From positions 1 through 37,311 of the forward strand of contig PHET01000029.1 in the NCBI GenBank assembly GCA_002841275.1: a stretch of DNA of 37,311 nucleotides, in the 5' to 3' direction. A program made the position numbers and the translations under genes. Positions 1-34,042 of the stretch are shown here, one piece after another; the first letter of the stretch is position 1, and the number at the start of each line of letters is the position of its first letter. The notes beneath the pieces are model-generated. The model made no database searches, was not told the origin of the DNA, and saw only the letters and a list, made by a program, of their open reading frames with translations. Source of the stretch: Actinobacteria bacterium HGW-Actinobacteria-7. GTDB lineage: Bacteria; Actinomycetota; Coriobacteriia; Anaerosomatales; PHET01.

Positions 1-62
1 GTCTTCAGGAAATCACGCCTGCTGATTCCCGAGGACGGCTGCCCGGTGTCCCTAGTTGCCAT
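1..62 (-). CDS. Start of a Tat-exported protein (partial, runs off left edge)
   Basis: An ATG at base 62 on the minus strand opens a frame that leaves the window after 20 codons. Residues 14-20 read SRRDFLK, a textbook twin-arginine (Tat) motif, so the product is probably exported already folded with a cofactor. An AAGGGA ribosome-binding site lies about 8 bases upstream. Tat signals of this form are common on molybdopterin oxidoreductases and their iron-sulfur subunits. The neighbouring Mo/W cofactor operon and the aptamer-like leader make such an enzyme (for example a formate dehydrogenase) the leading guess, but the catalytic part is not visible. Other Tat substrates remain possible. Confidence 0.72.
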   Translation of the reverse strand, partial: MATRDTGQPSSGISRRDFLK

Positions 63-105
63 TCCTGTTTCCCTTCTGGTCCTTATTCAACAGACCAATG
101 CTGGA

Positions 106-188
106 GCTCCTGCCCCTCACCGGGGCGCTGCACTCTGGCGGCTGGATCGTGCCACCCTCTCTGTCGTCGAAGCCATCCGTGCAGGAGC
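106..188 (-). promoter_or_regulatory. Folded leader domain just before the Tat gene
   Basis: On the minus strand this 83-base segment is closed by a perfect 8-bp stem, GCTCCTGC (bases 188-181) with GCAGGAGC (113-106). Inside are two further hairpins: GGTGGC with GCCGCC, and GCCCC with GGGGC. It lies between the terminator at 190-241 and the start codon at 62. It could be an expression platform, a second ligand-binding domain or an RNA-stability element. I do not recognise it as a known class. The segment AGGGTGGCAC resembles part of the T-box core, but the rest of a T-box is not evident. Confidence 0.45.
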
Positions 189-189
189 A

Positions 190-241
190 AACAAAAAGAC
201 CAGCACGAGACAGGCCCCTGGGGGTCAGCTCAATACTGGTC
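190..241 (-). terminator. Rho-independent terminator or attenuator in the Tat-gene leader
   Basis: On the minus strand GACCAG (241-236) pairs with CTGGTC (203-198), with additional GC-rich pairing inside the loop. The stem is followed directly by TTTTTGTTT. It sits downstream of the aptamer-like RNA at 356-440 and upstream of the start at 62. It is therefore well placed to act as a ligand-controlled attenuator, or simply to end read-through from the cytochrome operon. Confidence 0.65.
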
Positions 242-355
242 GTGGTACACATATAGACATCTCCCTTACCCGCGTGCGCGGCAAACAGCGAAACCGGCCC
301 CCATATATCCGCCGGGGGGACCGTCTCGTCTCATCGCGATCGCCTTTTCAAGCGC

Positions 356-440
356 GGGAGGCGTCCCGGTTTCCCGGTGACACCCTATCGGCCCAACGAC
401 CATGACGCCGGGTGGCGCGGTAGGTTCAGAAGGCTCGGAG
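356..440 (-). promoter_or_regulatory. Candidate Mo/W-cofactor-type riboswitch, copy A
   Basis: Read on the minus strand, five blocks occur in order: TCCGAG, CCTACCGC, GTCATGG, CCGATAGGG and GCCTCCC, separated by 9, 10, 8 and 20 bases. The same blocks, with gaps of 9, 11, 8 and 21, occur in the tupA leader (18349-18434). Between blocks 2 and 3 is a hairpin (GCGCC/GGCGT). Between blocks 4 and 5 is a long hairpin (GGTGTC/GACGCC, then CCGG/CCGG) capped by a GAAA tetraloop. CCTA...ATGG could serve as a tetraloop receptor. Position and conservation suggest a Moco/Tuco riboswitch, a class known upstream of Mo/W transport and enzyme genes. I compared it only with its partner copy, not with the family model. 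Confidence 0.6.
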
Positions 441-503
441 ATCGTCTTATTCGTGATGCCGTGTCAAGTGCAGTGAGGCTCAGTCTCGCCGGAGACTGTT
501 CGC

Positions 504-525
504 GATTGTAACTGCAGTTACAATC
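504..525. promoter_or_regulatory. 22-bp perfect palindrome, probable repressor operator
   Basis: The half-site GATTGTAACTG is followed directly by its exact reverse complement, giving a 22-bp palindrome with no spacer. On the minus strand it begins about 12 bases after the -10 box at 537-542, so a dimer bound here would overlap the initial transcribed region. A 7-bp hairpin (CAGTCTC/GAGACTG, 481-498) follows. Alternatively the two hairpins might help end the upstream cytochrome operon, but neither has a T tract. Confidence 0.55.
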
Positions 526-3139: not shown

Positions 3140-4753
3140 CTAGATGTTGAGATCAGTATGGCACCGACGGCAGAGCTGCGCGCCGGGATAGGGTGCGATC
3201 AATCTGTTCTGGTAGTCCAGTGACCCGTGGCACCCGTAGCAGAGCCTCAGGTCGTGTCCCGCGTTGGCCAGCGCATCTCCGGCGTTAGCGTCGGTGTGTG
3301 AGCTGGAACTCGAGGTTGTGGTGAACCCGACGTGGCAGTCGTCGCAGGTGTAGGGCTTGCCCTTCTTCTTGGCGACGTTGAAGTGGACCGCGTGCTCGGC
3401 GAAACCCTTGTTCTTGATGGACGTAGCTGGCTTCTTCTTCATTCCAGAGTGACAGGGCACACAGTTCTTCAACGTAAGCTCGGCCCGTGCCACCGTGGCG
3501 TGATGACACGTCTGGCACTTGCTGCGGTCGGTGTGGCACACGTTGCAGTCGTCGGTCGTGATACCCGCCGCCGGCTTGTGGTTCTCGATCCACCCCACGG
3601 GGTGCGGCATCGAGGTCTGATGGCAGCGCTTGCAGGACTGCTGCGTATGACACGAGGCGCACGCGCCCTGCCCTTGCAGGAAGAACCCACCGTGCTTGCT
3701 CTTCCAGTCAACCTTCCGGTGATCCGCGGGGATGACGGGTTTGCCTGGCGCATTGGGGCTGACCTTGTCTCCCCGATGGCAACCCACACAGAACGTGGAG
3801 GCATGACACATCGAACAGTAGGACGGGTCCTTGTTGGCCTTCTTCTTGTGCGTCCCCAAGATGAACTTGCGAGTGTGATTCGCAGGAGTCAACTTGAATG
3901 ATTTGGGGTGACACTTACTGCACTTGTCTGTTGCTACCTGGCCCTGCGCGGCATGGTCCAGTCCGTGGCACCGGTAACACGACATCATGTCCGGAATCAC
4001 CGGCCCGTTCTCGTTGTGGGAGAACGCGGGGTGGCACGCTTCGCAGGGGTAGTTGCGCTGAAGATGCTGTGCGTGCGCGAAGATCAATCGTCCCGGCGTG
4101 ATGGCGTCGAGATCCGGATGACAGTAGACGCACTGGGACATCGACACGCGTCCCTTGGGATAGACCTTGATCGAGGGTCCCTTGGGGCGGTCCTGAATGA
4201 CCGTCTGGTATCCGTCGGGCATCTTGCCGACAGTGGGAGCTTCCTTCGCATGGCACTCGTCGCAGTCCTTTGGAGCGCGGTGGCACATCATGCAGCCGTT
4301 GACCCCTTGCTTGGCGCTAGCGAGCGCGTGCGGCTTGCTCGCCCAGGCCTTCGAGTGATCCTTGGGCCGAAGTACGAATGAGGGCGTGTGACAGTCCTTG
4401 CACTTGCTGGTGGCGAGTTCCCCCAGGTCGCCGTGGGACACTCCGTGGCACGCGAAACACACCTCCATGGGAACGTGTTCGGTATACCCGTCGCGATGCG
4501 GTTGTCGAGAATGGCAGCCATCACAACTCACCATCAGGTGGTTTCCGTGGCTGAACACCAGGCCTGGAACGGAGATCTTGCCCAGGTCGATGTGACACGG
4601 AAGACACTGCGATTGATCGATTGCGGCGGCCGTATCCAACACGGGCTCCTCTGCGGCGTCGCCCAAACGGGTGGACGCAAGCAGGAAGGCGGCTGCGAGC
4701 ATAGTCGCAGCCACCCCCCAGATGAGTAGCTTTATGTTGAAGCGGCGTAGCAC
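3140..4753 (-). CDS. Exported 20-haem c-type cytochrome
   Basis: The 537-residue product has an N-terminal signal or anchor (hydrophobic 8-27) and 20 CXXCH motifs, about one per 27 residues. Residues 47-140 and 205-300 are clear repeats of one tetrahaem module, with matching spacing and an HG-x-HL or similar His block. Each is followed by a CxxCHxxxxCxxCH doublet (154-168, 313-327); another doublet lies at 365-378. The same tetrahaem-plus-doublet unit opens the next cytochrome gene (4784-6112). There is no catalytic signature, so an electron wire or store is the likely role. It lies in the operon with cytochrome b, 30 bases after the 13-haem gene. Confidence 0.92.
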   Translation of the reverse strand: MLRRFNIKLLIWGVAATMLAAAFLLASTRLGDAAEEPVLDTAAAIDQSQCLPCHIDLGKISVPGLVFSHGNHLMVSCDGCHSRQPHRDGYTEHVPMEVCFACHGVSHGDLGELATSKCKDCHTPSFVLRPKDHSKAWASKPHALASAKQGVNGCMMCHRAPKDCDECHAKEAPTVGKMPDGYQTVIQDRPKGPSIKVYPKGRVSMSQCVYCHPDLDAITPGRLIFAHAQHLQRNYPCEACHPAFSHNENGPVIPDMMSCYRCHGLDHAAQGQVATDKCSKCHPKSFKLTPANHTRKFILGTHKKKANKDPSYCSMCHASTFCVGCHRGDKVSPNAPGKPVIPADHRKVDWKSKHGGFFLQGQGACASCHTQQSCKRCHQTSMPHPVGWIENHKPAAGITTDDCNVCHTDRSKCQTCHHATVARAELTLKNCVPCHSGMKKKPATSIKNKGFAEHAVHFNVAKKKGKPYTCDDCHVGFTTTSSSSSHTDANAGDALANAGHDLRLCYGCHGSLDYQNRLIAPYPGAQLCRRCHTDLNI

Positions 4754-4783: not shown

Positions 4784-6112
4784 CTACTTCCCCGTCAGCT
4801 TCGCGATCAGCTTCCTGAGAGGGTTAGCTTCCTGCTCCGCGACCTTGGTGTGGATCAGGTCTGCGGCAGCTGCACCGAACTTCTCACTGCTGCCCGAGTG
4901 ACAGCCAGGACGACCACACGTCGCACCCACGTTGGCCGCGTTAACGCTCGATTCCTTGCTCGCGGCGGGCAGGATCTTGTGCGAACCATGGCAGTCCCAA
5001 CAGGCAGGCGCATCGGCGGCGCCAGCCTTGTACGCCTTCCCATGATAGTAGTCGTCATACGTGTCGTAGTTCGTACCGTGCTGCTTGCAGCGCGCACAAA
5101 CCCGGTATGAGGACATATGCAGCCGCTGCTTGGCGGCGTCGTTGTCCGTTCGGGCAATGAAGTGGCCTCCATGGCACGAGCCGCAGGTGGCAGCGTCGTA
5201 GTTGCCTTGGCTGATGGCCTCCGCGTGCTTGGACTGGTTGTAGGCCGCGACCGGTGCACTCAGGCGAGTGCGGTCCGCCTCGGACAGGTTCTTGTTGTCC
5301 TTCTGCGCTGAATGGCAGCTGGCACACGCCTGGCCGGCGTTCACGGTCCACAGCTGGCTGGGCATCGTCTTGTCATCGTAACGGTAGTCCTGGTGACAGT
5401 CCTGGCACGAGAGATCGGTGTGGGCGGAGTCGGTCAGCCCCGTCACCTGGAAGGACTTCATGCCTGCGGCAGACTGCTTGGTCAACCCGGCCTCTCCATG
5501 GCATGCCAGGCACCCGTCGCCCGCGTCGTAATCCCAGCTTGCAGGCGCCCACTTGATGCCTTCGCGATCATGACACTCGTTGCACGACGCCGGCTGATGG
5601 CACATGGCGCACTTGGTGTTGAACTCCTTGTTCGCCGGCGCCACGTGCTCGACTCCCGCCCAGCCAAACGTGTGAAACGCAGGGCGCAGCCGCTCCCGCG
5701 GAGTGACATGGCAGTCGACACACTCACCCGATGCGATGACACCCATCGGGCCGTGGCGGACACCATGACAGTCGAAGCATCCCTTCATTGAGGGCCGCTC
5801 GATCGTCGTGTCCGCGCGGTGCGGGAATCGCGGATGACAGCTATCGCACGCCACCAGCTGATGATAGCCATGCTGGAACTTGATGGCCGAGGCGTAGTTC
5901 TCGGTCTTCGCGATGCTGCCGTGACACGTCTTGGTGCACGCGTCCTTGTACACCGGCGAGTTCTGCAGCTGCTGAAAGAGCTGCTCGAAACTGGGCTGCT
6001 CGGGTACATCAGCGGCGAACGCCGCCGCCGCACCCAAGGTCACGCAGAATGCGACCCCCGCGAGCCCGATGGCGAGCAGCCTGCCGGGGCGTGCTCGGTG
6101 CCGTGGTGCCAT
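4784..6112 (-). CDS. Exported cytochrome with up to 13 haem sites, including CXXCK
   Basis: This 442-residue protein begins with a Sec signal (cleavage probably near AAAFA at 33). It has ten CXXCH motifs (Cys 89, 112, 131, 168, 177, 201, 236, 263, 310, 371), one CX3CH (59-64), one CX4CH (399-405) and one CARCK (339-343) where a haem site is expected. Residues 56-155 match the tetrahaem module of the 20-haem cytochrome. Residues 201-405 match the whole haem region of the 7-haem protein encoded next to it. CXXCK gives a Lys-ligated haem in NrfA-type nitrite reductases; here the Lys is followed by QH. Whether this site is catalytic or merely a divergent ligand cannot be told from sequence. Confidence 0.9.
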   Translation of the reverse strand: MAPRHRARPGRLLAIGLAGVAFCVTLGAAAAFAADVPEQPSFEQLFQQLQNSPVYKDACTKTCHGSIAKTENYASAIKFQHGYHQLVACDSCHPRFPHRADTTIERPSMKGCFDCHGVRHGPMGVIASGECVDCHVTPRERLRPAFHTFGWAGVEHVAPANKEFNTKCAMCHQPASCNECHDREGIKWAPASWDYDAGDGCLACHGEAGLTKQSAAGMKSFQVTGLTDSAHTDLSCQDCHQDYRYDDKTMPSQLWTVNAGQACASCHSAQKDNKNLSEADRTRLSAPVAAYNQSKHAEAISQGNYDAATCGSCHGGHFIARTDNDAAKQRLHMSSYRVCARCKQHGTNYDTYDDYYHGKAYKAGAADAPACWDCHGSHKILPAASKESSVNAANVGATCGRPGCHSGSSEKFGAAAADLIHTKVAEQEANPLRKLIAKLTGK

Positions 6113-10012: not shown

Positions 10013-10576
10013 TCACTTCTCGGTTGATCGGGCGATCTTCTTGCACTCGTTGGCTGCGTGGACCTCGGCGGAGGCCACCAGCGACTCCTCGGGAGAGCGG
10101 TCACAGGTCCCGTCCCCGATGCTGATCACCTCTATGATATCGCCAACCGCAACCGGTCCGGCCACACGCACGACCGCGAAGACGCCTTCGCGAGGCATGA
10201 CGCAGTCTCCGGCCTGGTAGTAGATCGCGCACTTGTTGTGACAGGTCTTGCCGACCTGGCTGACCTCGAGCACGACGCCGTCGCCGATATGAATGATGCT
10301 TCCAACCGGCAGCGTCATGACGTCGACGTCTTGCGTGGTGATGTTCTCGGCGAAGTCGCCCGGGCCAACGTCGAGGCCCTTGGCGGTCATCTCATCGATG
10401 CTCTCCTGCGCCAGTAGCGAGACTTGGCGATGCCAGTCACCGGCATGCGCGTCGTCGGCGAAGCCGCTGTCCAGGATGAGAACGCCCGAGTCATAGCGTT
10501 GCTTGCGCATCGTCTTGCGAGGCGACAGGTTCACAGAGGTGACGCGGCCGGTACGGCCGAGTTCAGGAGCGGTCAT
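10013..10576 (-). CDS. MOSC-domain protein
   Basis: The start at 10576 (ATGA overlap with moaC) gives 187 residues. The sequence resembles stand-alone MOSC proteins of anaerobe molybdopterin operons: an N-terminal beta segment (GRVTSVNLS), [33 protein letters not shown] and a late [13 protein letters not shown] domains belong to Moco sulfurases and YiiM-like proteins and are thought to handle sulfur or the cofactor. The Cys pair in KTCHNKCAI is a candidate active site. The exact substrate is unknown. Confidence 0.82.
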
Positions 10577-11076
10577 TGCAGGTCCTCCTCGCGGGTCCAG
10601 GTGCCGGAGTTGCCGCCGGCCTTCGAGAGCAGTTTGACGTCCGAGACGACCATGCCGCGATCGACCGCCTTGCACATGTCATAGATCGTAAGCGCCGAGA
10701 CGGCTGCTGCCGTGAGCGCCTCCATCTCGATGCCGGTCTTGCCGTCGGTCTCGGCGGTCACCGTGATGCGGATGCCGGCACGTTCGTCCTGAACAGGCTT
10801 CAGATGGACCGCAACGTGCGTGAGCGAAAGCGGGTGGCACAGCGGAATCAGCTCGCTGGTGCGTTTCGCGGCCATGATGCCCGCGATGCGCGCGGTGGCC
10901 AGGACGTCGCCTTTGGCCGCCGCGCCGCTGGTGATGAGCGCGAGCGTCTCGGGCTGCATCAGGACAAAGGCTGTCGTCACCGCCGTGCGGTGCGTGACGG
11001 CCTTGTCGGCGATGTCGACCATGTGGGCCTGGCCGGCGCTATCCAGGTGAGTCAGGCCGGAGTTCTTGGGCTCCAT
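10573..11076 (-). CDS. moaC: Cyclic pyranopterin monophosphate synthase MoaC
   Basis: The ATG at 11076 follows the moaA stop by one base, with GGAGG inside the end of moaA, and gives 167 residues, a standard MoaC length. Family motifs are clear: [40 protein letters not shown], and [29 protein letters not shown]. With MoaA it converts GTP to cyclic pyranopterin monophosphate, the first committed step of molybdopterin synthesis. Confidence 0.96.
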
Positions 11077-11077
11077 C

Positions 11078-12103
11078 CTAGCCTCCGATCTGGGACATAC
11101 CGCGGGTGGTTCCCACGCGGTCGTGATGACTTTCGGGCTTCGCGCCCAAGGCCGTGAGAATGACTGCACGCACATCATCGTCCGTACCCGTACGAAGCGG
11201 ACTGCGAACGTCGAATTCGATATCGGAGAACAGGCACGGGCGCAGCATCCCGTCGGCGGTGAGCCGCAACCGGTTGCACTCCCCGCAGAAGTGGTGCGAC
11301 AGCGGCGAGATCACGCCGATGGTGCCGGGCGCTCCCTCGAATCGGTAGTAGCGTGCCGGGCCCCAGCCACCGGGTGCGCCATCGCGCTCGACTGCAACCA
11401 GAGGTCCCAGGCCGGCAGCTTCGCCCTGCTGTGTGATGGTGGCGAGCGTCTCCTCGCTGGGCACGTGGTCCTCCCGGCTCCATCCGCCGGATTCTGCGGC
11501 ACAGCCCGAGCCCTCGTGGGCCGACTCGCCCACCGGCATGTACTCGATGAAGCGCACGTGGAGCGGGCGCTCGGTGGTGAGCTTCGCGAAACCGAGAAGG
11601 TCCTGGTGCAGCGAGCGCACAACGACGACGTTGAGCTTCACCGGCGAGAACCCAGCCTCGAACGCCGCATCGATCCCGGCGAGCACATCGGAGAGGTGGC
11701 CGCCGCGCGTCACGGACTCGAAGACGTCCGGGTCGAGCGAATCGAGACTGATGTTGACCCGCTCGAGACCGGCCTCGCGCAGCTCGGCGGCGAACTTGGG
11801 CAGCAGCGTCCCATTGGTGGTCAGTGCCACCGCTTCGACACCCACGTGCTCGCGCAGGTGGCGGATGAACTCAGGCACTCCATGGCGTACCAGCGGCTCT
11901 CCGCCGGTAAGCCGGATCTTGCCGATACCGAACTCGACGGCGATGGCCGTGAAGCGCTCAATCTCCTCGAGCGTGAGGATCTGATCGTGCGGCTTCCACG
12001 GCACACCCTGCTCGGGCATGCAGTAGACACAGCGCAGGTTGCAGCGATCCGTGAGCGCGATGCGCAGATAATCGATACGCCGTCCGTGCGCGTCTGTAGC
12101 CAT
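11078..12103 (-). CDS. moaA: GTP 3',8-cyclase MoaA (radical SAM)
   Basis: The 341-residue protein has the radical SAM cluster motif CNLRCVYC (residues 21-28), TGGEPLVR, and the C-terminal cluster motif [18 protein letters not shown]. It ends in GG, as catalytically competent MoaA proteins do. It makes the MoaC substrate from GTP. Its start shares one base with the mobB stop (TGATG). Confidence 0.96.
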
Positions 12104-12627
12104 CAGCCCTCACGACCAAAGAAGCGCTCGCCGATGAGATCGGCGACTCCCGCTGCATCATCGAGTTCGAAGCGCGGCACGCCGTCGCAGGAAAGCGCGG
12201 AGTTGTTGGTCACGAGCGCGAGCAGCTCGCCCGGCTCGCACACAAGCGAGTCCGAACGCTCGACGCGCGAGACCTCTATGCGGTTGCGCCCCTCGCGCTT
12301 GAAGCCCTCAGTGATGAGGATATGGCTCCCGATATCGGCCGCTATGCGTGCGATCTCGTCGATTGAAAGCTCCTGTTCCACCTCGTGGATCAGTGCGAAC
12401 TTCTCGGGCGAGGAGACCATGGTGGCGACGGCCCCGGCCCGCGCGTGGCGGTACGAGTCCTTGCCGGGAACGTCGATGTCGTAGTCGTGGATGTGGTGCT
12501 TGACGGTTGCGACGCGCACGCCGCGACCCGTCAGCTCCGCGATGAGCTTCTCGAGGAAGGTCGTCTTGCCGGAGTCGCCCTTCCCCACCACCGAGACCAC
12601 GGGGACCGTGTTCGGCGTATCTGTCAT
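12103..12627 (-). CDS. mobB: Molybdopterin-guanine dinucleotide GTP-binding protein MobB
   Basis: The 174-residue protein begins with a P-loop (VVGKGDSGKTTFLEKLIAEL), followed by VATVKHHIHDYDIDVPGKDSYRHARAGA, the typical MobB region, and ILITEGFKREGRNRIEV. MobB binds GTP and assists MobA in forming the guanine dinucleotide cofactor used by DMSO-reductase-family enzymes such as formate dehydrogenase. A 31-base gap separates it from the small Cys protein, the widest gap in this part of the operon. Confidence 0.92.
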   Translation of the reverse strand: MTDTPNTVPVVSVVGKGDSGKTTFLEKLIAELTGRGVRVATVKHHIHDYDIDVPGKDSYRHARAGAVATMVSSPEKFALIHEVEQELSIDEIARIAADIGSHILITEGFKREGRNRIEVSRVERSDSLVCEPGELLALVTNNSALSCDGVPRFELDDAAGVADLIGERFFGREG

Positions 12628-12658
12628 GTCCTACCCCAGTCTGTCGGTGAATTGCGCT

Positions 12659-12877
12659 TTAGAAGCAGCCCAGGTCGCAGTTGTGAACGCGCACGCCCGC
12701 TATGTCGGCGGCAGCACCGGCGACCTTGTACGGCACGCCGGTATCCTCGGCGAACTTGCGCAGCACGGGGCAGGTGACCTTCCCGTCGACCGCCTTGGCG
12801 AGAATCGCGTCCTTCATCTCATCGGTGACCTGCGCCGTCCAGCGCGGATCGAGTTCCTTGGGTCCGTTGTCGCTCAT
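12659..12877 (-). CDS. Small conserved Cys protein of the Mo/W cofactor operon
   Basis: The ATG at 12877 overlaps the moeA stop (ATGA), giving 72 residues. Visible features are KVTCPVLRKFAEDTGVPYK in the middle and a conserved-looking C-terminal end VRVHNCDLGCF, so three Cys in all. Short proteins with a similar ending occur beside moeA/mob genes in other anaerobes as far as I recall, but I know no assigned function. A metal-binding or redox accessory role for Mo/W insertion is conceivable. Confidence 0.78.
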   Translation of the reverse strand: MSDNGPKELDPRWTAQVTDEMKDAILAKAVDGKVTCPVLRKFAEDTGVPYKVAGAAADIAGVRVHNCDLGCF

Positions 12878-14127
12878 TGCACTCCCTCTTCCATGTCGAG
12901 CCGCACGCACTGAACCAGCGTGCCGGCGGCGAATACTCCTTCACCTTCGGGTAGTACGACGAAGCAGTTGCCTCGATGGGCCGCTGTGAGCAGCGCCGAG
13001 GACTGGCTGTTCGGAAGCGAGGCCGAATACTCCCCGTCCACGAGTTCGACGCGGCCGCGAAGATAGTAGCGACGGTCCTGCTTCTTCTTAACGTCGTGCG
13101 AAAGCCGCGCCATAGTGACAGGGCGGTCAATCGCCGAGAAGCCCTGCATCATCAGAAGTGACGGCCGCACGAAGATCTCGAAGCCCACATACGTGCTGGT
13201 GGGGTTGCCCGGAAGTCCGAAGAACGGCACGCCCCTGATCGAACCCAGCGTCTGGGGATTGCCGGGCCGCATCTTCACCTTGCAGAAGTCGAGTTCGCCA
13301 AGCTCCTCGAGCACCGGCTTGACGAAGTCGAAGTCTCCCACGCTCACGCCGCCGCTGGTGGCGATGAAGTCGCACTCGGCGGCGGCTTTCTCAAACGCCG
13401 CACGCGTGGTTTCCATATCATCGGCGACGATGGGATAGCGCACCGGGATGCCGCCGGCAGCGATGACCTGCGCCGCGATCGAATAGCTGTTGGAGTTGCG
13501 GATCTTACCCGGGCCGGGCTTCTCGGCGACCTCTACGAGTTCGCTTCCGGTCGAGAGCACCGCTACGCGAGGCCGACGGTACACCGGGACAGTGGCATGG
13601 CCGGTCGAGGCAAGCAGCCCGATGGCCGCGGGGCCCAGCTTCTCCCCCGCCGAGATGACCACATCGCCTGCGCGCACCTCTTCGCCGCGACGGCGGATGT
13701 GCTCGCCGAGCCGTGGCTCGATCTCGAAGGCCACGCGCGCGCCCATGCCCCCATCACCGGAGACCACGGAGGTGCGCTCGACCATGACAACGCTGTCAGC
13801 GCCCTGAGGCACGGCCGCACCGGTCATGATGCGTGCCGCCTGGCCTGGACCCACTGCGATGCCCTCGACGTCGTCACCTGCAGCGATATGCGCGATCACG
13901 TCGAGCTCGCCAGGGGAATCGGCGGTCGCGCCGGCAAGATCCGCGGCACGAACCGCGAACCCGTCCATCGCCGAGTTGTCGAACGGCGCGACGTCGATAT
14001 CGCTGGTCGCGTCGACGGCGAGTACGCGACCCAGAGCCTCGAGGAGCGAGACCTCCTCGGCAGGAAGGACCTTGATGCGGTCGAAGACGAGCTGGCGCGC
14101 TTCCTCGACGGTCATTGTCTGTGTCAC
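12874..14127 (-). CDS. moeA: Molybdopterin molybdenumtransferase MoeA
   Basis: The 417-residue protein has the full MoeA domain order: N-terminal domain with DVAPFDNSAMDGFAVRAAD (near 45-63), MTGAAVPQGADSVVMVE, the MoCF-fold stretch VAVLSTGSELVE, ATSGGVSVGDFDFV, VKMRPGNPQTLGSIRGVPFFGLPGNPTS, and a C-terminal barrel domain. It inserts molybdate, or tungstate in W-using organisms, into adenylated molybdopterin. The GTG at 14127 overlaps the previous stop by four bases; an ATG 12 bases later (14115) is the alternative start. Confidence 0.95.
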   Translation of the reverse strand: MTQTMTVEEARQLVFDRIKVLPAEEVSLLEALGRVLAVDATSDIDVAPFDNSAMDGFAVRAADLAGATADSPGELDVIAHIAAGDDVEGIAVGPGQAARIMTGAAVPQGADSVVMVERTSVVSGDGGMGARVAFEIEPRLGEHIRRRGEEVRAGDVVISAGEKLGPAAIGLLASTGHATVPVYRRPRVAVLSTGSELVEVAEKPGPGKIRNSNSYSIAAQVIAAGGIPVRYPIVADDMETTRAAFEKAAAECDFIATSGGVSVGDFDFVKPVLEELGELDFCKVKMRPGNPQTLGSIRGVPFFGLPGNPTSTYVGFEIFVRPSLLMMQGFSAIDRPVTMARLSHDVKKKQDRRYYLRGRVELVDGEYSASLPNSQSSALLTAAHRGNCFVVLPEGEGVFAAGTLVQCVRLDMEEGVQ

Positions 14128-15602
14128 GAGCCCTCCTCGGTGGTGAGCACCCGTTCGGGGTGCGTGTAGACGGTGAGCTTGCCGCCGCGAACGTAGCCTA
14201 CGAGCGTGATGCCCAGCCCGTCGGCGAGGTCGGCGGCCAGATCGGTCACGGCGCTACGCGACGCGGCGATGGCGACCCGTGCCTTGGCAGCCTTGACCGC
14301 CATCTCGTAACTGATGCGTCCTGTCGCCACGAGTACGGCTCCGGCTGTGGGAATGTGATCGAGCCACGCACGGCCCAACACCTTGTCGATGGCGTTGTGC
14401 CGGCCGACGTCCTCGCGAGCAACGAGCAGCTCGCCATCACGGCCCAGCCCGGCGGCGTGCATGCCGCCCGAGTCGCGGTACATGACCGCGGCATCACCGA
14501 GCTCGCGAACGAGCAGGTATATCTCCTTGGCGCTCACCGTGAGTTCGGACTCGACAGGTGCCAGGCCCCGTGCGTGCCCCACCGAGGCGAAGGTGACGCC
14601 CTTGCCACAACCACTGGTCATGTAGCGGGTGCGTTCTGCGAGGTCAACCGGGACCTTCTCGGCCGAGGAAACCCAGACCATCCCTCGCTTGAAGTCTGTG
14701 TCGACGCCGGTGAAGGCCGACCGATCGGACAGGAACCCCTCGGAGAGGAGGAACCCTACCGCGAGTTCCTCGAGGTCGCGCGGCGTGGCCTGCACGGTTG
14801 CAACCTCGACGTCGTTGAGGTGGATGGTCACGGGACTTTCGCTGGGCAGGGTACGCGGCCTGCGAGTGGCAACCTCGACGATCTCGAGGCGGCGCTGCTT
14901 GGCCGTGTGTTCGGGGACCGTCTCGCGCGCCTCCACGAGGTCTGAGGGCGTGTTGACGTTGAAGAGCGAGCGCAGATCGGGATCCGCGGCGCGCAACTGC
15001 TCGACGGGAATCTCGACAACCTTGACCTGCGAGAACAGTGCGACCAAGCGGCGGCGTCCCGTTGCGAGCACGTCACGCGCCGGGCCAAGACACGCCGGTA
15101 CCCGGTACAGGGCAAGCAGGGGCTCGAGGCCTTTGTCGGTCACGGGAACGACTACGTCCCCTTGGCCGCGGGCGGCCCACAAGGCGCGGATCAGCTCGGG
15201 CTCAAGGTGCGGCATGTCAGCCGCGACGGCGAGCACCCACTCAGTTGATGCCGAGGCCAGCGCAGTTGCCAGACCGCCGAGAGGCCCCTGATACGCGACT
15301 TCGTCTCGAACGATCTCGACGCCCTCAGGAAGACCTGCATCGTCGAGGGCCTCGGGACGGTTGGTGACGACAATCGTGCTCTCGCATACGGTGCCGACGG
15401 CATCGCACACCAGTGCCACGAGCGAGCGACCGTCCAACGCCAGTAGCGTCTTGTCCACTCCCATGCGCAATGAGCGACCGCCCGCCAGAACAGCGGCGGT
15501 GATCGGGAGGCGCATATCGTCGGTGGATCGAGTCACGTACGTCCCTGCCTGTCGTCGTCGGTCATACGGCGTCCGCCGAAGCCGGACGCACTTGGAAGTC
15601 AC
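14124..15602 (-). CDS. Fused MobA-FdhD protein
   Basis: This 492-residue protein joins two Mo-enzyme maturation functions. Residues about 30-225 are MobA-like: AAVLAGGRSLRMGVDK with the nucleotide-binding loop, then LAVAADMPHL. Residues about 230-490 are FdhD: SESPVTIHLND, DLEELAVGFLLSEG, YMTSGCGKGVTF, ARGLAPVESE, DSGGMHAAGL, AREDVGRHNAIDK, GRISYEMAVKAAKARV. MobA adds GMP to the cofactor; FdhD passes sulfur to it for formate dehydrogenase. The FdhD active loop here has a single Cys (SGCGKG) instead of the CXXC of E. coli. A GTG at 15602 overlaps the tupC stop; a later ATG at 15515 is the alternative start. Confidence 0.92.
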   Translation of the reverse strand: MTSKCVRLRRTPYDRRRQAGTYVTRSTDDMRLPITAAVLAGGRSLRMGVDKTLLALDGRSLVALVCDAVGTVCESTIVVTNRPEALDDAGLPEGVEIVRDEVAYQGPLGGLATALASASTEWVLAVAADMPHLEPELIRALWAARGQGDVVVPVTDKGLEPLLALYRVPACLGPARDVLATGRRRLVALFSQVKVVEIPVEQLRAADPDLRSLFNVNTPSDLVEARETVPEHTAKQRRLEIVEVATRRPRTLPSESPVTIHLNDVEVATVQATPRDLEELAVGFLLSEGFLSDRSAFTGVDTDFKRGMVWVSSAEKVPVDLAERTRYMTSGCGKGVTFASVGHARGLAPVESELTVSAKEIYLLVRELGDAAVMYRDSGGMHAAGLGRDGELLVAREDVGRHNAIDKVLGRAWLDHIPTAGAVLVATGRISYEMAVKAAKARVAIAASRSAVTDLAADLADGLGITLVGYVRGGKLTVYTHPERVLTTEEGS

Positions 15603-16720
15603 ATTGTAGCCGCGCCCGTCGTTTCGTTCACGAGCCGCCAGCGGACCGCCGTCGCTTTGAAGACGGCCAGCAGTCGGGCACCGGGCGATACGCCCAGCTC
15701 TGCTGCAGCCGCCCGAGAGACGCTGGCGGCCAGCTTCACACCGCCTGCGTCAAGCGCGGCGTAGAATGTGGCGCCCCGCGGCTCCACGGACGTGACCGTC
15801 ACCGGGACGCGGTTTCGAGCGGTGGTGAGTGGAAGCTCGACACCCGGCTCGAAGAGCAGGACATCCTCAGGGTGCACTGCGAACAACACGTCCGCACCAA
15901 CGGGTGGATTCCCCGAGGCAAAGACCTCAAGCCCGCCAGTCGCGACCGTCACCAGACCTTGCTCCACTCCGGTCACTCGACCCTGCGAAGCCGGCTCGAC
16001 ACCCAAGAACTGAGCGGACCATTCGTCGACGGCGAGGCCCATGACTTCCTCCGCGGCTCCGCACGCCACGATTCTCCCACGGTTCATGATCGCGATTCGC
16101 TGAGCGACGACCAACGCCTCGTCCTGATCGTGTGTCACGTAGACCACGGTCACACCAGCGTCAGCGAGAATCGTCGCGAAGTCGCGCGTGAGCTGCCGTT
16201 TGAGCAGGCGATCGAGCGACGCCAGCGGTTCATCGAGGAGCAGCACGCGCGGCTCGAGCACCAGCGCGCGGGCGAGCGACACGCGCTGCGCCTCACCGCC
16301 CGACAACACGAGCGCGCTCCTACCCTCGTAGCCGGCGAGACCGACACGCTCAAGGGCTTCCGCGACTCGTTCCACGCGCTGCCGTTTGGGAACTCGACGT
16401 GCGACAAGACCGTACTCGACATTCGCGGCGACCGAGCCCTTGAACAGATGTGGCCGCTGGAACACGGCCGCCATCTGGAGCCGTGCCGCGCGGTCTCGCA
16501 TCCCGACGGCGCGCCCGTCCAGCAGAACCTGGCCCGCGTCCGAGCGCTGCAGCAGGCCCAGAATCTCGAGCAAGGTGGTCTTACCTGACCCCGATGGGCC
16601 GAGCAAGGCAAGAGTCTCTCCCGCCGGCACGTCGATGCTGTCCACGGACAGCTCGAAACCGCCGCGAGCATATCTGCGTTTCAGCCCCACTCCCGCCAGG
16701 GCCACGGCCGGGGCGCTCAC
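15599..16720 (-). CDS. tupC: Tungstate/molybdate ABC transporter ATPase TupC
   Basis: The GTG at 16720 overlaps the permease stop (GTGA) and gives 373 residues. The ATPase domain has Walker A GPSGSGKTT, the Q-loop in VFQRPHLF, signature LSGGEAQRVSLARAL and Walker B VLLLDEP. A C-terminal TOBE/Mop-type domain (about 290-370, ending FKATAVRW) could bind oxyanion and regulate transport. With the typical TupA two genes upstream, tungstate is the likelier substrate. The open frame extends further upstream, but that part overlaps tupB and is not protein-like. Confidence 0.9.
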   Translation of the reverse strand: MSAPAVALAGVGLKRRYARGGFELSVDSIDVPAGETLALLGPSGSGKTTLLEILGLLQRSDAGQVLLDGRAVGMRDRAARLQMAAVFQRPHLFKGSVAANVEYGLVARRVPKRQRVERVAEALERVGLAGYEGRSALVLSGGEAQRVSLARALVLEPRVLLLDEPLASLDRLLKRQLTRDFATILADAGVTVVYVTHDQDEALVVAQRIAIMNRGRIVACGAAEEVMGLAVDEWSAQFLGVEPASQGRVTGVEQGLVTVATGGLEVFASGNPPVGADVLFAVHPEDVLLFEPGVELPLTTARNRVPVTVTSVEPRGATFYAALDAGGVKLAASVSRAAAAELGVSPGARLLAVFKATAVRWRLVNETTGAATM

Positions 16721-17424
16721 TGTCGCTCCCACTGTTGCGCCGATGTCTGCATCCTCGTGAGCGCCACGTTGACGAAGACGACCATGGCCATCAGCACGAG
16801 GGCGAGCGAGAGCGCGTAGCCGTACCGGCCCATTCGCGTGTACTGCACGATCGCTGTGGTCATGACCCGCGTTTCGCCCTGGAGATTGCCGCCCACCATC
16901 TGGACCGCACCCACCTCGGAGATAACCGACCCGAATCCACCGGCAACGGCCGCGATGAGTCCCATCCGGGCCTCGCGCAGAGTCAGGAGTGCAACACGCC
17001 AACCCTGCGCACCCAGCGAGCGCGCCTGAAGGCGGAGTTCCCGCGGGACCGCCGAGACGGCTGCGGCGGTGATGGCCATGACGATGGGTGTGGCGATGAT
17101 GACCTGCGCAATCACCATCGCCGTCTGGCTATAGAGAAGCGACAGGTCCCCGAACGGACCTCGCCTCGAGAGCGCCATCGCGACGATGAGCCCCACAAAC
17201 ACCGGCGGCATGCCCATGCCCGAGTTGAACACCAGCAACGCCACGCCTCGGCCGACGAAGCGCTTTAGTCCGACGAACAAGCCCACCGGGATACCGATGA
17301 GCAGGGCGATCATCGTCGCCGCGCCCGATACACGCAGCGAAGTGACGATGATCGCCCACACGTCGAGCGTCCCCGAGGAGAGAAGTATCCAGCCCTCACG
17401 AAGTGCGTCGACGTATATGCCCAC
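16717..17424 (-). CDS. tupB: Tungstate/molybdate ABC transporter permease TupB
   Basis: The 235-residue membrane protein has about five helices and the permease EAA-like segment ELRLQARSLGAQGWRVALLTLREARMG. PVFVGLIVAMALSRRGPFG and GAVQMVGGNLQGETRVMTTAI are typical of the TupB/WtpB group. It forms the channel with TupC. It starts 15 bases after tupA. Confidence 0.92.
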   Translation of the reverse strand: MGIYVDALREGWILLSSGTLDVWAIIVTSLRVSGAATMIALLIGIPVGLFVGLKRFVGRGVALLVFNSGMGMPPVFVGLIVAMALSRRGPFGDLSLLYSQTAMVIAQVIIATPIVMAITAAAVSAVPRELRLQARSLGAQGWRVALLTLREARMGLIAAVAGGFGSVISEVGAVQMVGGNLQGETRVMTTAIVQYTRMGRYGYALSLALVLMAMVVFVNVALTRMQTSAQQWERQ

Positions 17425-17439: not shown

Positions 17440-18327
17440 CTATTGTGCGTTGGGAATGAAGAGCTGCTGCCCGTACTTCTCAACGCCATAGTCGCCAATG
17501 ACCTTCTGACCTTCCGCCGAGAGAACCCAGTCAAAGAACGCTTGACCACCCACCTGGTTCTTCGCATCGGTCACAACGATCACACCGTACTGGTTGAGCA
17601 GGCCCTTGTCGCCCTCACGGTCGACCGCGAGCTCGATAGTGTCCTTCATCGAGAGGTACGTCGCCCGGTCGGCAAGTGTGTAGGCGCCCTTCTCGGAAGC
17701 GATCTTGAGGGTCTCGCCCATGCCTTGCCCCGTCGACTCGTACCATTTGTCGGTGCCAGGCGTCGGGGTCGCGATACCGGAGGCCGCCCACAGCTTGAGC
17801 TCCTTCTTGTGCGTACCGGAGTCGTCGCCGCGTGAGATGAAGACGGCCTTGCCCGCCTCACCCGCCGCCTTGAGCGCCTTCATCGCCGCGGTCGTGTCGG
17901 CGGAGGCCTTGATACCGGCCGGATCGCTGGCAGGACCCACGATGACGAAATCGTTGTACATGACGTCCCTGCGCTCGATGCCGAATCCTGCCGCGACGAG
18001 CTTCTCCTCGTCGGCCTTGGCGTGCACGAGCAACACGTCGGCATCCTTGGTCTCGCCGAGCTTGAGCGCCTCGCCCGTTCCCACCGCGACCACTTTGATC
18101 TTGTACAGCGGGTTGGCCTTCTCGAAGGCCGGGATCAGCACGTCGAACAGCCCTGAGTCCTGGGTCGACGTCGTCGAAGCCAAGATGACCTCTGTGGGCT
18201 TTTCCGCAGCAGGGCTTGCCGGCTTCTGCGCGGGTTGCGAACACCCTATGAGGGCGAACGCCATGAGTGCGGTGAGTCCAAGACCCACCAAGCGCCGACT
18301 GCGCGGCGCGCTAGAGAAGTGGTGCAT
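17440..18327 (-). CDS. tupA: Tungstate-binding lipoprotein TupA
   Basis: I take the ATG at 18327 as start because AAAGGAG lies 8-9 bases upstream; the 295-residue product then begins MHHFSSAPRSRR and reaches a lipobox at FALIGC. The mature part has STTSTQDSGLFDVLIPAF, the TTS-TQDSG signature of the TupA family, plus GDDSGTHKKE and GMGETLKIA binding-pocket segments. TupA proteins bind tungstate very tightly and prefer it to molybdate. It is the first structural gene after the aptamer-like leader (18349-18434). Confidence 0.94.
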   Translation of the reverse strand: MHHFSSAPRSRRLVGLGLTALMAFALIGCSQPAQKPASPAAEKPTEVILASTTSTQDSGLFDVLIPAFEKANPLYKIKVVAVGTGEALKLGETKDADVLLVHAKADEEKLVAAGFGIERRDVMYNDFVIVGPASDPAGIKASADTTAAMKALKAAGEAGKAVFISRGDDSGTHKKELKLWAASGIATPTPGTDKWYESTGQGMGETLKIASEKGAYTLADRATYLSMKDTIELAVDREGDKGLLNQYGVIVVTDAKNQVGGQAFFDWVLSAEGQKVIGDYGVEKYGQQLFIPNAQ

Positions 18328-18348
18328 ATCCAGCTCCTTTCCAATCAC

Positions 18349-18434
18349 GGGAGGCGAGGCCGTTTCCGAAACCTCGCCCTATCGGTCCGGACGCCATGAC
18401 CGAGAAACTCGGCGGTAGGCTCTCCGGACTCGGA
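18349..18434 (-). promoter_or_regulatory. Candidate Mo/W-cofactor-type riboswitch, copy B (tupA leader)
   Basis: The minus strand shows the same ordered blocks as 356-440: TCCGAG, CCTACCGC, GTCATGG, CCGATAGGG and GCCTCCC. An outer stem GTCCGGA/TCCGGAC and an inner hairpin GCCGAG/CTCGGT differ in sequence from copy A but keep its layout. The last hairpin (GGCGAGG/CCTCGCC) is again capped by GAAA. CTCC in the final block can pair with GGAG of the tupA ribosome-binding site just downstream, which would suit control of translation. A possible -10 box, TATGAT, lies at 18478-18473. Confidence 0.6.
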
Positions 18435-18480
18435 TGCTGTGCGTCGTGGGCACCACACACACGACGCCTTGAATCATAGA

Positions 18481-18509
18481 GCAGGGCGCGGCCGATTGCC
18501 ACGCCCTGC
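18481..18509 (-). terminator. GC-rich hairpin after the Mop gene
   Basis: On the minus strand GCAGGGCG (18509-18502) pairs with CGCCCTGC (18488-18481), starting 12 bases after the Mop stop codon. The following bases (TCTATG) are only weakly T-rich, so termination may be partial, letting some transcripts continue into the tup operon. A second hairpin, GCGTCGTG/CACGACGC (18441-18467), lies between it and the aptamer-like RNA. Confidence 0.45.
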
Positions 18510-18521
18510 GTATCAGATCGA

Positions 18522-18725
18522 CTACTTGCCGATCATCACATGATCGGCCTTCACGATGGCAACGACCTCGTCACCGACGGCTAGCCCCATGTCGGCGACG
18601 GCATCCATTGTTATGACCGATGAGACCGTCATCGAGCCGATGTCGATCCTGACAAGCGCCTCGACGGCACCCTCTTTGATCTCGACGACGCGGCCCGGCA
18701 GCTGATTGCGCGCACTGAGTTTCAC
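18522..18725 (-). CDS. Stand-alone Mop-domain molybdate/tungstate-binding protein
   Basis: The product has the hallmark start KLSARNQLPGRVVEI, then VEALVRIDIGSMTVSSVIT and a final VGDEVVAIVKADHVMIGK, a single Mop/TOBE domain. I take the GTG at 18725 as start because GGAAGGTGA lies about 5 bases upstream and the resulting 67 residues match the usual length of these molbindins; a GTG at 18734 is the alternative. Such proteins assemble into rings that bind and buffer molybdate or tungstate. Confidence 0.88.
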   Translation of the reverse strand: MKLSARNQLPGRVVEIKEGAVEALVRIDIGSMTVSSVITMDAVADMGLAVGDEVVAIVKADHVMIGK

Positions 18726-31856: not shown

Positions 31857-32318
31857 CTACTTGCCGGAGGCTGCAATCACGTAGTCGATCTGCGTAAGGC
31901 CGCCCTCGGCCTCGGTCAGTGTGATGATGCCCTCTTCCGAGTCACGGGCGATCGAGAGGACCGCCGTGCGGGCGCCTTCGGTACCGGACTCCTCGCGAGC
32001 CACGCTCCATCCAGCGTCCTCAAAGCCCACCACGATGCCGTTCAAGACATCGGTGTAGGTGTCGGTGGTCTGCAACGAGAGGCTGTAGGCATCTTCGGTC
32101 TGATCGGACTCGAGCACCGTGGCGCCGGGCCACAGCGGCAACCCCTCCGGCGTCGATTTATCGAGCTTCCCGTCCACAGCCGCGCCGGCAGCCGCGCGGG
32201 TCGCCTCCTGCGTGACTATGGTTGGAGGCGGCGTGAAACGTGCCTCGAGACGCTTGCACCCTGTCGCGGAGAGCAGCGCCAGGGCGACAACGGTGAGTGC
32301 GAGCAGGCGGCGGTTCAT
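31857..32318 (-). CDS. Small lipoprotein of unknown function
   Basis: The 153-residue product starts with a lipoprotein signal (MNRRLLALTVVALALLSATGC; lipobox SATGC). The mature part has LPLWPGATVLESDQTEDAYSL, a WP-G-A segment seen in several actinobacterial and clostridial lipoproteins, then a small alpha/beta-like domain. I cannot assign a role. GGAG lies 7 bases before the ATG. It is just downstream of selC on the same strand, and the hairpin at 32341-32368 separates the two. Confidence 0.8.
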   Translation of the reverse strand: MNRRLLALTVVALALLSATGCKRLEARFTPPPTIVTQEATRAAAGAAVDGKLDKSTPEGLPLWPGATVLESDQTEDAYSLSLQTTDTYTDVLNGIVVGFEDAGWSVAREESGTEGARTAVLSIARDSEEGIITLTEAEGGLTQIDYVIAASGK

Positions 32319-32340
32319 CTACGGTCTCCTCGGTGAACTC

Positions 32341-32368
32341 CAAACGCCCCGACGATGCGAGGCGTTTG
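32341..32368 (-). terminator. Terminator of selC
   Basis: CAAACGCC (32341-32348) pairs perfectly with GGCGTTTG (32361-32368) around a 12-base loop. It lies 10 bases past the 3' end of the tRNA and before the lipoprotein gene. The T tract after it is short (GTTTGGAGTT), so termination may be incomplete. Confidence 0.55.
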
Positions 32369-32378
32369 AGAATACATG

Positions 32379-32475
32379 TGGCGGAAGCGTGTGCGAATCG
32401 AACACACCCAGGAGGCTCTTCACCCCCCACGACGGTTTTGAAGACCGCGGAGCCCACCAGGACCCATCCGCCTCC
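32379..32475 (-). tRNA. selC: tRNA-Sec (selenocysteine, anticodon TCA)
   Basis: The 97-base minus-strand gene begins GGAGGCGG and ends with encoded CCA after GCTTCCG. The anticodon stem GCGGT/ACCGT encloses CTTCAAA, giving anticodon TCA, which reads UGA. A long variable arm (GGGGGG-type strand pairing with CCTCC) and the T arm GTGTG-TTCGATT-CGCAC complete a typical bacterial tRNA-Sec; its size is diagnostic. One G-A mismatch lies at the eighth acceptor pair. SelB, which delivers this tRNA, is encoded 4 kb away at the right edge. Confidence 0.95.
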
Positions 32476-32483
32476 AAGGGGAG

Positions 32484-32512
32484 ATTGTGGTGAGAGGTGT
32501 GGACCGTGTCAA
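32484..32512 (-). promoter_or_regulatory. selC promoter
   Basis: The minus strand has a consensus -35 TTGACA (32512-32507), a 17-base spacer and a -10 CACAAT (32489-32484). The expected start lies at or just before the first base of tRNA-Sec at 32475. Confidence 0.72.
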
Positions 32513-32570
32513 CCGCTCCCAGCAGCCAAGACGTCTGTAACCGCTGCAGGAACGTCACATTATGAGAAAT

Positions 32571-32615
32571 GTCTCATGGTGGTCTCATCAACGGCTCATC
32601 GGAGGGTCCTACCAT
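32571..32615 (+). promoter_or_regulatory. Three PhoB-type direct repeats plus -10 before the NapC-like cytochrome gene
   Basis: GTCTCAT (32571-32577), GTCTCAT (32582-32588) and GGCTCAT (32593-32599) are separated by 4 bases each, an exact 11-base period. That is the layout OmpR/PhoB-family regulators bind. A -10-like TACCAT follows at 32610-32615, with no good -35, as for an activator-dependent promoter. An ATGAGA at 32562-32567 forms an inverted repeat with the first unit. Confidence 0.6.
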
Positions 32616-32650
32616 TCAGGGCATGTATTCGCCGTAATCCGGAGGCAAGC

Positions 32651-34042
32651 ATGGCCCGACTAGTCACATGGTCCCGTTCTCACCAGATCGCAGCGGTGGG
32701 CGTCGCACTGGCCGTACTCGTGGTCATCGCGTTCGCTGCCGTGGGAACAGCGCTGGCTACCGACCAGCCGACCTTCTGTAATGCCGCATGCCATGAGATG
32801 CAACCGTTCCATGAAGCGTGGAGCAAAGGCCCGCACGCCGAGATCGGTTGTATCAACTGTCACGTCGAGGCGGGTATCCCCTCAAGGATGGCCCACAAGG
32901 TCGTCGCACTGGGAGAGCTCTGGACGCACGTCTCGGGCGATCCCAAGTTCCCTCTGACAACCGTCACCCCGGTTCCTGACGAACGTTGCATCAGCTGCCA
33001 CGAGAACGTGAAGAGCAAGAGCCCCGGATTCGATCACGCTGCTCACGCGAAGCGTGGAGCATGTCAAAGCTGCCACGCAACTGCTGGTCACGACGTCCCC
33101 CGCTCGGCGCTCGAGAGTGCGGGCATCCTGAACGCCACCCAGAGGCAGTCCTTGGTGAGTACCGCCGTTGCCGCAGTCGACCAGGGCAAGGCCAACGTAC
33201 CCGGCCACATCACCATCAGCTGCACCCGTTGTCACGATCTCGCCAAGACGGGCTGTCCGGCGTGCCACACGCCACGCCACGAGCAGTCCGGTCCCGCGAC
33301 AAAGACCGCTGATTGTCAGACCTGTCACGCAGCAGGCGAGAAGTTCGTCTTCGCACACCCGGCAGATCGTACCGACTGTGCGTCATGCCACCAGGCGCCC
33401 CTCACGAAACACGACTACAAGAACGAGTGCACAACGTGTCACACGAAGCCGGGTGTCGCCTGGACCTTCGCACACCCCAAGCGCACGGCCACCTGCACGA
33501 CATGCCATACGCCCCCTGCCAAGCACCGCACGGGAGTATGTACCACCTGCCACAAGAAGACCGGCGTCTCGTGGGCGTTCTCGCACCCGACCAGCAGGTC
33601 ATGTTCGAGCTGTCACAATCGTCCCTCGAGCCACCGTTCCGGCTCGTGCACTTCGTGTCACCGCCGGGCTGGCGTGTCCTGGGCGTTCTCTCACCCCAGC
33701 TCGTCCTCTTCGTGCAGCAACTGCCATACACGCCCCAGCGGTCACCGGTCCGGCTCGTGCGCGTCGTGTCACCGCACCGGCGTATCTTGGGCATTTCGCC
33801 ACACCAGCTCGACGTCGTGCTACTCGTGTCACAAGCCGCCGTCCGGGCACTACGGAACGAGGTGCGTCTCGTGCCACTCGCCGAGCCGCAAGTGGTCCAA
33901 CGCCCATTTCACTCACGCGCGCATTCCGGGTGGCGAGCACACCAATCGTAGCTTCGCTTGCACGAACTGCCACCCCAGGGGATACAGTACTCACACATGT
34001 GCGAAGTGCCATGGAAACGCCAGCGGACCATCGGGCGACTGA
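32651..34042 (+). CDS. NapC-like quinol dehydrogenase fused to a repetitive multihaem tail (19 haem motifs)
   Basis: ATG 32651 has GGAGG 5 bases upstream, giving 463 residues. A membrane anchor at about 12-36 is followed by a NapC/NrfH-like head: FCNAACHEM (a CX3CH first haem with the Met two after His), CINCHVEAG, CISCH and CQSCH. From about residue 190 on there are 14 to 15 more CXXCH sites. Residues 268-411 are four copies of a roughly 36-residue diheme unit built on SWAFSHP, SCSSCH and SHRSGSC. NapC-type heads oxidise menaquinol; the tail would conduct electrons outwards through the wall. The fusion would do in one chain what CymA plus separate cytochromes do elsewhere. Confidence 0.88.
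   Translation: MARLVTWSRSHQIAAVGVALAVLVVIAFAAVGTALATDQPTFCNAACHEMQPFHEAWSKGPHAEIGCINCHVEAGIPSRMAHKVVALGELWTHVSGDPKFPLTTVTPVPDERCISCHENVKSKSPGFDHAAHAKRGACQSCHATAGHDVPRSALESAGILNATQRQSLVSTAVAAVDQGKANVPGHITISCTRCHDLAKTGCPACHTPRHEQSGPATKTADCQTCHAAGEKFVFAHPADRTDCASCHQAPLTKHDYKNECTTCHTKPGVAWTFAHPKRTATCTTCHTPPAKHRTGVCTTCHKKTGVSWAFSHPTSRSCSSCHNRPSSHRSGSCTSCHRRAGVSWAFSHPSSSSSCSNCHTRPSGHRSGSCASCHRTGVSWAFRHTSSTSCYSCHKPPSGHYGTRCVSCHSPSRKWSNAHFTHARIPGGEHTNRSFACTNCHPRGYSTHTCAKCHGNASGPSGD
33452..33883 (+). repeat. Tandem ~108-base coding repeat inside the 19-haem cytochrome gene
   Basis: Four imperfect copies, each coding about 36 residues with two CXXCH motifs, follow each other in frame. The two middle copies are the most alike, with repeated GTGTCACCG and TGGGCGTTCTC words, suggesting recent duplication. 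Copy number could vary between strains and would alter the length of the haem chain. Confidence 0.75.

Follow-up and report, generated by a model that had tools for sequence, protein, structure and literature searches.

Two P3-less Moco/Tuco riboswitch copies with different expression platforms, before a tup operon and a formate dehydrogenase gene, in a genome of the order Anaerosomatales

The Moco RNA motif (Rfam RF01055, the Moco/Tuco riboswitch) occurs in two forms distinguished by helix P3. In the portions of Regulski et al. 2008 (PMC2408646) available to us, RNAs with P3 are assigned to the molybdenum cofactor, the variant lacking P3 is proposed as a sensor of the tungsten cofactor (Tuco), and the same division between P3 and metal is seen across phyla in the survey; direct ligand binding is given as undemonstrated even for the E. 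coli RNA. The aptamer, the P3-less subtype and both types of expression platform within one organism are already contained in that account. Since aptamer and subtype are published, whereas no description of a second P1 strand, presented below, was found in Rfam or the open-access literature searched, we file the RNAs reported here under the known class and keep the platform of one of them apart.

The window, by which we mean the whole stretch of 37,311 nucleotides analysed (contig PHET01000029.1 of Actinobacteria bacterium HGW-Actinobacteria-7), carries two such RNAs. Several predicted multihaem c-type cytochrome proteins are also encoded in it, at 3140-4753 (-), 4784-6112 (-) and 32297-34042 (+). 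A first-pass annotation had noticed five sequence blocks in the same order on the minus strand at 356-440 and 18349-18434, had read them as a structured regulatory RNA and had proposed a search with the Rfam MOCO_RNA_motif model. All five blocks were found at both places, and cmscan placed both segments in the predicted family rather than an unrelated one:

325-452, minus strand: copy 1, P3-less RF01055 aptamer before fdhA (cmscan, 51.7 bits, E 1e-9, model positions 1-135)
18319-18447, minus strand: copy 2, P3-less RF01055 aptamer before the tup operon (cmscan, 57.0 bits, E 2.9e-11, model positions 1-135)

Both matches score above the family gathering score of 36 bits with a covariance model, which excludes a chance origin of the recurrent blocks. 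The earlier coordinates lie inside these matches but are too narrow, because P1 and the flanks fall outside them. Another RNA family was rejected for either segment, as cmscan returned RF01055 alone there, and a search of the host genome gave exactly two RF01055 copies, those in the window. In both alignments the model positions of P3 are deleted and the junction consists of a few bases. The GAAA tetraloop and CCTA/ATGG receptor proposed earlier agree in position with the GNRA tetraloop and receptor sites of RF01055 (P4 loop GGAAAC and P2 bulge CCTA...ATGG in both copies), the contact itself being predicted. Covariance in homologues, which the annotation had named as a check, is seen: 19 of 33 consensus pairs have compensatory double changes among 31 fdhA-linked relatives, in a test that covers P1, P2 and P4, and the P1 covariation score in the fdhA-linked leader alignment is 0.254 versus 0.157 for shuffled alignments. 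Both copies are located in 5′ leaders of Mo/W genes, namely the tup/moa operon and fdhA. These RNAs are further members of an already known riboswitch class, and this membership supports the earlier guess of Moco or tungsten-cofactor sensing, with the ligand predicted.

The distribution of the class was followed through the order Anaerosomatales (class Coriobacteriia), where RF01055 was detected in 56 of 61 genomes (host and relatives) and 114 of 115 copies were read individually. P3 is absent in 110 of these; the four copies that have it all belong to one genome, G017, in which one of them stands directly before a gene scoring above the modA cut-off. Other P3-containing copies of this genome (L054, L055) lie near an FmdE-family gene and ORFs without assigned family. 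When downstream genes were classified by blastp against reference proteins, 53 copies fell into a tup class (one being the G017 modA copy), 40 plus the window copy into an FDH class, seven preceded AOR genes, three a GEGP diheme protein gene and one a ModA-like gene, with a few left without class. The genes for GEGP motif-containing diheme proteins, downstream of L060 (G053) and L036 (G002), are not obviously connected with Mo or W; in G053 two RF01055 copies are arranged in tandem before such a gene.

The host genome encodes tupABC homologues and three genes of the AOR (aldehyde-ferredoxin-oxidoreductase) family, and a search of this genome revealed no ModA. The absence of P3 together with the tup, AOR and FDH context therefore favours the tungsten cofactor over its Mo counterpart, and both copies most likely sense the tungsten form of the molybdopterin cofactor. 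Alternatively, P3-less RNAs might sense Moco, or Moco and Tuco alike, loss of P3 being a lineage trait of the order. Since nearly all copies there are without P3, this feature hardly varies inside the order, as such a trait would have it, and one P3-less copy (G045) is found before a ModA-family gene. We nevertheless consider this distinctly improbable: copies with P3 are found again in one genome, with one such copy immediately before modA, the gene sets are tungsten-associated, and the 2008 survey (PMC2408646), as far as it was available, shows the same split across phyla. In the accessible parts of the open-access literature no direct proof of a selective Tuco response was found for any P3-less member. 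An order with P3-less RNAs and tungsten genes, including one genome with P3 copies, offers natural material for testing the unproven idea that P3 determines whether Mo or W is sensed.

Features of the copy 2 region are as follows:

18429-18439, minus strand: P1 5′ strand of copy 2, CAGCAUCCGAG
18331-18340, minus strand: P1 3′ strand of copy 2, AAAGGAGCUG, including the tupA Shine-Dalgarno sequence (18334-18340); ATG at 18327
17440-18327, minus strand: tupA-like lipoprotein, tungstate-binding by similarity (best NCBIfam match TupA, 200 bits, cut-off 400)
16717-17424, minus strand: tupB-like permease (above the cut-off for the ABC_perm1 subfamily; TupB equivalog below cut-off)
15599-17002, minus strand: tupC/wtpC-like ATPase with a TOBE domain (TupC equivalog below cut-off)
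14124-15602, minus strand: MobA-FdhD fusion, 492 aa
12874-14127, minus strand: moeA
12103-12627, minus strand: mobB
11078-12103, minus strand: moaA
10573-11178, minus strand: moaC
10013-10675, minus strand: ORF like the C-terminal part of a MoaC/MOSC fusion
18522-18725, minus strand: 67-aa TOBE (molbindin-like) protein upstream of copy 2 (Pfam TOBE, 65.5 bits)

In P1 of copy 2, CAGC-A-UCC pairs with GGA-GCUG. Throughout the tup class the Shine-Dalgarno sequence is contained in the P1 3′ strand and the ATG mostly follows 5-8 nt further on, an arrangement to which copy 2 conforms. Because the Shine-Dalgarno sequence of tupA is the P1 3′ strand, we propose with good confidence that copy 2 acts as a ligand OFF switch: P1 stabilised by the ligand would keep tupA, which opens an operon for tungstate uptake and cofactor synthesis, from being translated. 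The tungstate label rests on similarity, since the TupA score lies below the model cut-off, and the real tupC start must be further down, as the listed ORF start falls inside tupB. Judging from strand and spacing, the cofactor-synthesis genes (10013-15602, minus strand) probably form one operon with tup. Relatives of the MobA-FdhD fusion are mostly found in Coriobacteriia MAGs. Ahead of the molbindin-like gene there is a LysR regulator gene matching a selenium-metabolism model above its cut-off, and between the molbindin-like gene and copy 2 lies a G+C-rich inverted repeat, GCAGGGCG...CGCGCCCTGC (18481-18509, minus strand), with no clear T tract; it is possibly a terminator or a processing site.

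The first-pass annotation held that the same RNA precedes an enzyme gene and a transporter operon. The aptamer class is indeed the same, but the expression platforms differ and no single control mode applies to both. The leader of copy 1 contains the following elements:

506-523, minus strand: palindrome TTGTAAC-TGCA-GTTACAA, lying upstream of copy 1 (no second exact match in the genome)
437-446, minus strand: P1 5′ strand of copy 1, GACGAUCUCC, which can pair with either of two 3′ strands (P1 and P1′ covariation)
337-344, minus strand: proximal P1 3′ strand, GGCGAUCG, with one U-C mismatch (sequence and model alignment)
296-322, minus strand: hairpin between aptamer and distal strand, containing CCCCCGGC (leader alignment; loop CCGGCAA in relatives)
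256-274, minus strand: distal strand, CGCGGGUAAGGGAGAUGUC, alternative P1 3′ partner (P1′); SD-like AAGGGAG at 261-267
198-242, minus strand: intrinsic-terminator-like hairpin GACCAG...CUGGUC (T tract after a strong hairpin; basal stem covaries in relatives)
189-197, minus strand: T tract TTTTTGTTT after the terminator hairpin
52-252, minus strand: candidate 66-codon leader ORF that begins 8 nt past the SD-like strand and overlaps the start of fdhA
1-62, minus strand: start of fdhA (selenocysteine formate dehydrogenase alpha), with Tat signal MATRDTGQPSSGISRRDFLK; the rest of the gene is on contig C28, 41263-44772

The Tat-exported enzyme gene of the earlier annotation can thus be named. Only MATRDTGQPSSGISRRDFLK of FdhA is visible in the window because the window begins at the contig end; contig C28 of the same genome shares an overlap of 79 identical bases with that end and holds the remainder of the gene. 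The joined fdhA has 1169 codons and only one in-frame TGA, which falls at EHQARI-U-HSSTVAGL. Among protein families it matches formate dehydrogenase-N alpha best (404 bits, short of the cut-off of 814), and the molybdopterin domains score above their cut-offs. A tRNA-Sec gene is present in the window, of 40 related fdhA copies 35 were seen in a motif search to have TGA at the Sec position, and SECIS_3-like matches, below the family cut-off, occur in the fdhA region of six out of eight such loci. Orthologues in two genomes of the same family (G001 and G002) share a near-identical protein start and the same riboswitch.

In fdhA leaders no second Rfam family was detected between aptamer and gene. 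Gene starts of the FDH class lie roughly 200-265 nt past the aptamer (ORF starts being mechanical, some are too early), and most members have a T tract 95-133 nt past it. A simple terminator scan missed the terminator of copy 1 because its loop is too long. The 66-codon leader ORF may be untranslated; a conserved leader peptide was rejected, for although the ORF has 66 codons in all three genomes (with G001 and G002), differences are spread evenly over codon positions. Palindromes of the TTGTAAC-N4-GTTACAA type are found upstream of many fdhA-class copies and are missing upstream of the tup-class copies displayed. The genome has three further sites with one mismatch, one of them on C28 within about 5 kb of the fdhA remainder, and the palindrome at 506-523 looks like a candidate operator of a regulator. 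The aptamer of copy 1 is flanked by hairpins with CCGGC loops, at 482-497 (AGUCU-CCGGCG-AGACU) and 296-322 (CCCCCGGC..., both minus strand). CCGGCA loops are frequent at those two places in relatives, and CCGG is self-complementary; a test for pairing between the intermediate hairpin and the 5′ CCGGCA hairpin gave no support (z -0.5).

What sets the fdhA leader apart is a distal strand, GGGUAAGGGAG, that sits before the terminator and can replace the P1 3′ strand. Complementary to the P1 5′ strand, it is similar to the 3′ strand that belongs to the aptamer itself (UUGGAAAGGAGAC). The sequence GGGUAAGGGAGGC, or one similar to it, occurs in 34 of 40 related fdhA leaders as well as in the window copy, and is absent at the corresponding position of tup-class leaders. 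The patterns and windows by which distal strands, T tracts and ATGs were counted had been set after viewing the leaders, and these counts are descriptive rather than independent tests. Native P1′ partners pair better than swapped ones (-12.8 versus -10.7 kcal/mol, z -5.1, 0 of 5000), with a z of -5.4 for P1 itself. The P1′ covariation score is 0.233 versus 0.163 in shuffled alignments (0 of 500) and 0.056 to 0.157 in slid controls, values uncorrected for kinship; the number of double-change pairs is not above shuffles (319 of 500), and some alignment rows are off by one column. Covariation support for P1′ is therefore moderate. Predicted energies put P1′ below P1 in 25 of 28 leaders, by 6.6 kcal/mol on average.

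Such pairing could also be a by-product of the distal strand being a mere ribosome-binding (or protein-binding) site. The GGGAG core is SD-like, so that pairing with CUCC comes automatically; an ATG follows in 19 of 31 leaders; and the conserved CCGGCAA loop frequent in the adjoining hairpin is not explained by P1′. We regard this explanation as unlikely, since positions beyond the SD core track the P1 5′ strand (eight double changes in column pair 21-228 and five in 22-227), swapped partners pair less well, and several leaders retain the distal strand without any ATG. The distal strand as a second P1 partner is possibly a new expression platform: we found no description of it in Rfam or in the accessible parts of the open-access literature, which was the scope of the search, closed literature lying outside it. 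The fdhA-type platform was absent from the class members outside the order that were inspected, which precede tup or other genes. A pattern search for it across 396 genomes of the phylum returned two fdhA leaders of the same order and three stray matches, which is weak evidence of absence because a pattern so strict fails to match even the window copy.

The direction in which copy 1 switches was approached by equilibrium folding of the fdhA leaders. The terminator is predicted with a probability of 0.87 when P1 is formed and 0.93 with P1′; exceptions are the window copy (0.01 versus 0.95), which ceases to be one in a slightly longer fold, and, in part, two other leaders. The SD-like strand is unpaired with a probability of 0.49 in the P1 state versus 0.39, a small predicted release. 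An ATG lies 3-13 nt past this strand in 19 of 31 leaders compared with 12% of background windows, the other 12 leaders having none; several leader ORFs are minimal (AUG-UGA, AUG-UAG, AUG-AGA-UGA), and the 5′ arm of the terminator usually starts within about 12 nt of the leader ATG. This geometry suggests that a ribosome on the distal strand could block the terminator. A classical antiterminator, formed by the stretch before the distal strand with the terminator, was rejected, as the native pairing is worse than swapped pairings (z +2.6).

Our leading guess, to which we give slightly less than an even chance, is that copy 1 is an ON switch. The ligand would favour P1 and its absence P1′; with P1 formed, the SD-like distal strand would be open to a ribosome, which would mask the terminator's 5′ arm as it starts there, and fdhA would be turned on when the cofactor is available. 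An ordinary OFF switch, in which the ligand promotes termination before fdhA by a route outside equilibrium folding, is a serious contender, though we lean against it. Nearly all leaders are predicted to form the terminator when P1 is present (the ligand-bound state), OFF control applies to the E. coli member and is usual for terminator-linked riboswitches, and the available text of the 2008 paper (PMC2408646) reports terminator-linked members. Yet the terminator is predicted equally with P1′, so P1 alone does not explain switching, and no antiterminator pairing is supported. It would also be physiologically less sensible to repress the enzyme while the cofactor is at hand, though this is an argument rather than a test.

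Family membership, the absence of P3, the gene context and the presence of two different expression platforms are established. We hold with high confidence the joint reading of both copies as P3-less RF01055 RNAs with Tuco as the most likely ligand, an OFF switch with the Shine-Dalgarno sequence in P1 at copy 2, and a platform of P1, P1′ and a terminator at copy 1. A bolder proposal extends this to the order: one Tuco aptamer would serve opposite switches, OFF for uptake and synthesis and ON for fdhA, through an SD-bearing second P1 strand that antagonises the terminator. We think it possible, though well under an even chance. If true, the opposite-switch fdhA leader would add to the Moco/Tuco class an expression platform not described so far, and if copy 1 is ON, one cofactor RNA would both close down uptake of the metal and allow the metal-dependent enzyme to be made.

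The fdhA copy differs from the descriptions in the accessible parts of PMC2408646, and from the Rfam model, in having a second P1 3′ strand, an SD-like element and a pre-terminator hairpin. In full-model sequence and structure, the GAAA tetraloop with its receptor, the lack of P3 and the tungsten gene context, both copies resemble the P3-less Tuco subtype as presented in that paper, where the Moco RNA class likewise includes a ribosome-binding site in P1, as in copy 2, and a terminator-linked platform, as in copy 1. As described in the sources available to us, Moco RNAs before aorA genes in Pelobacter carbinolicus and before a hydrogenase/FDH-related cluster in Eubacterium limosum represent the same class before W/Mo-enzyme genes; these leaders were compared by description only, and the descriptions available mention no second P1 strand. 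The E. coli moaA riboswitch, in the accounts available, is of the same class as copy 2: P1 holds its ribosome-binding site and, where tested, control is OFF. The E. coli RNA has P3 and does not respond to the tungsten cofactor, whereas copy 2 is without P3.
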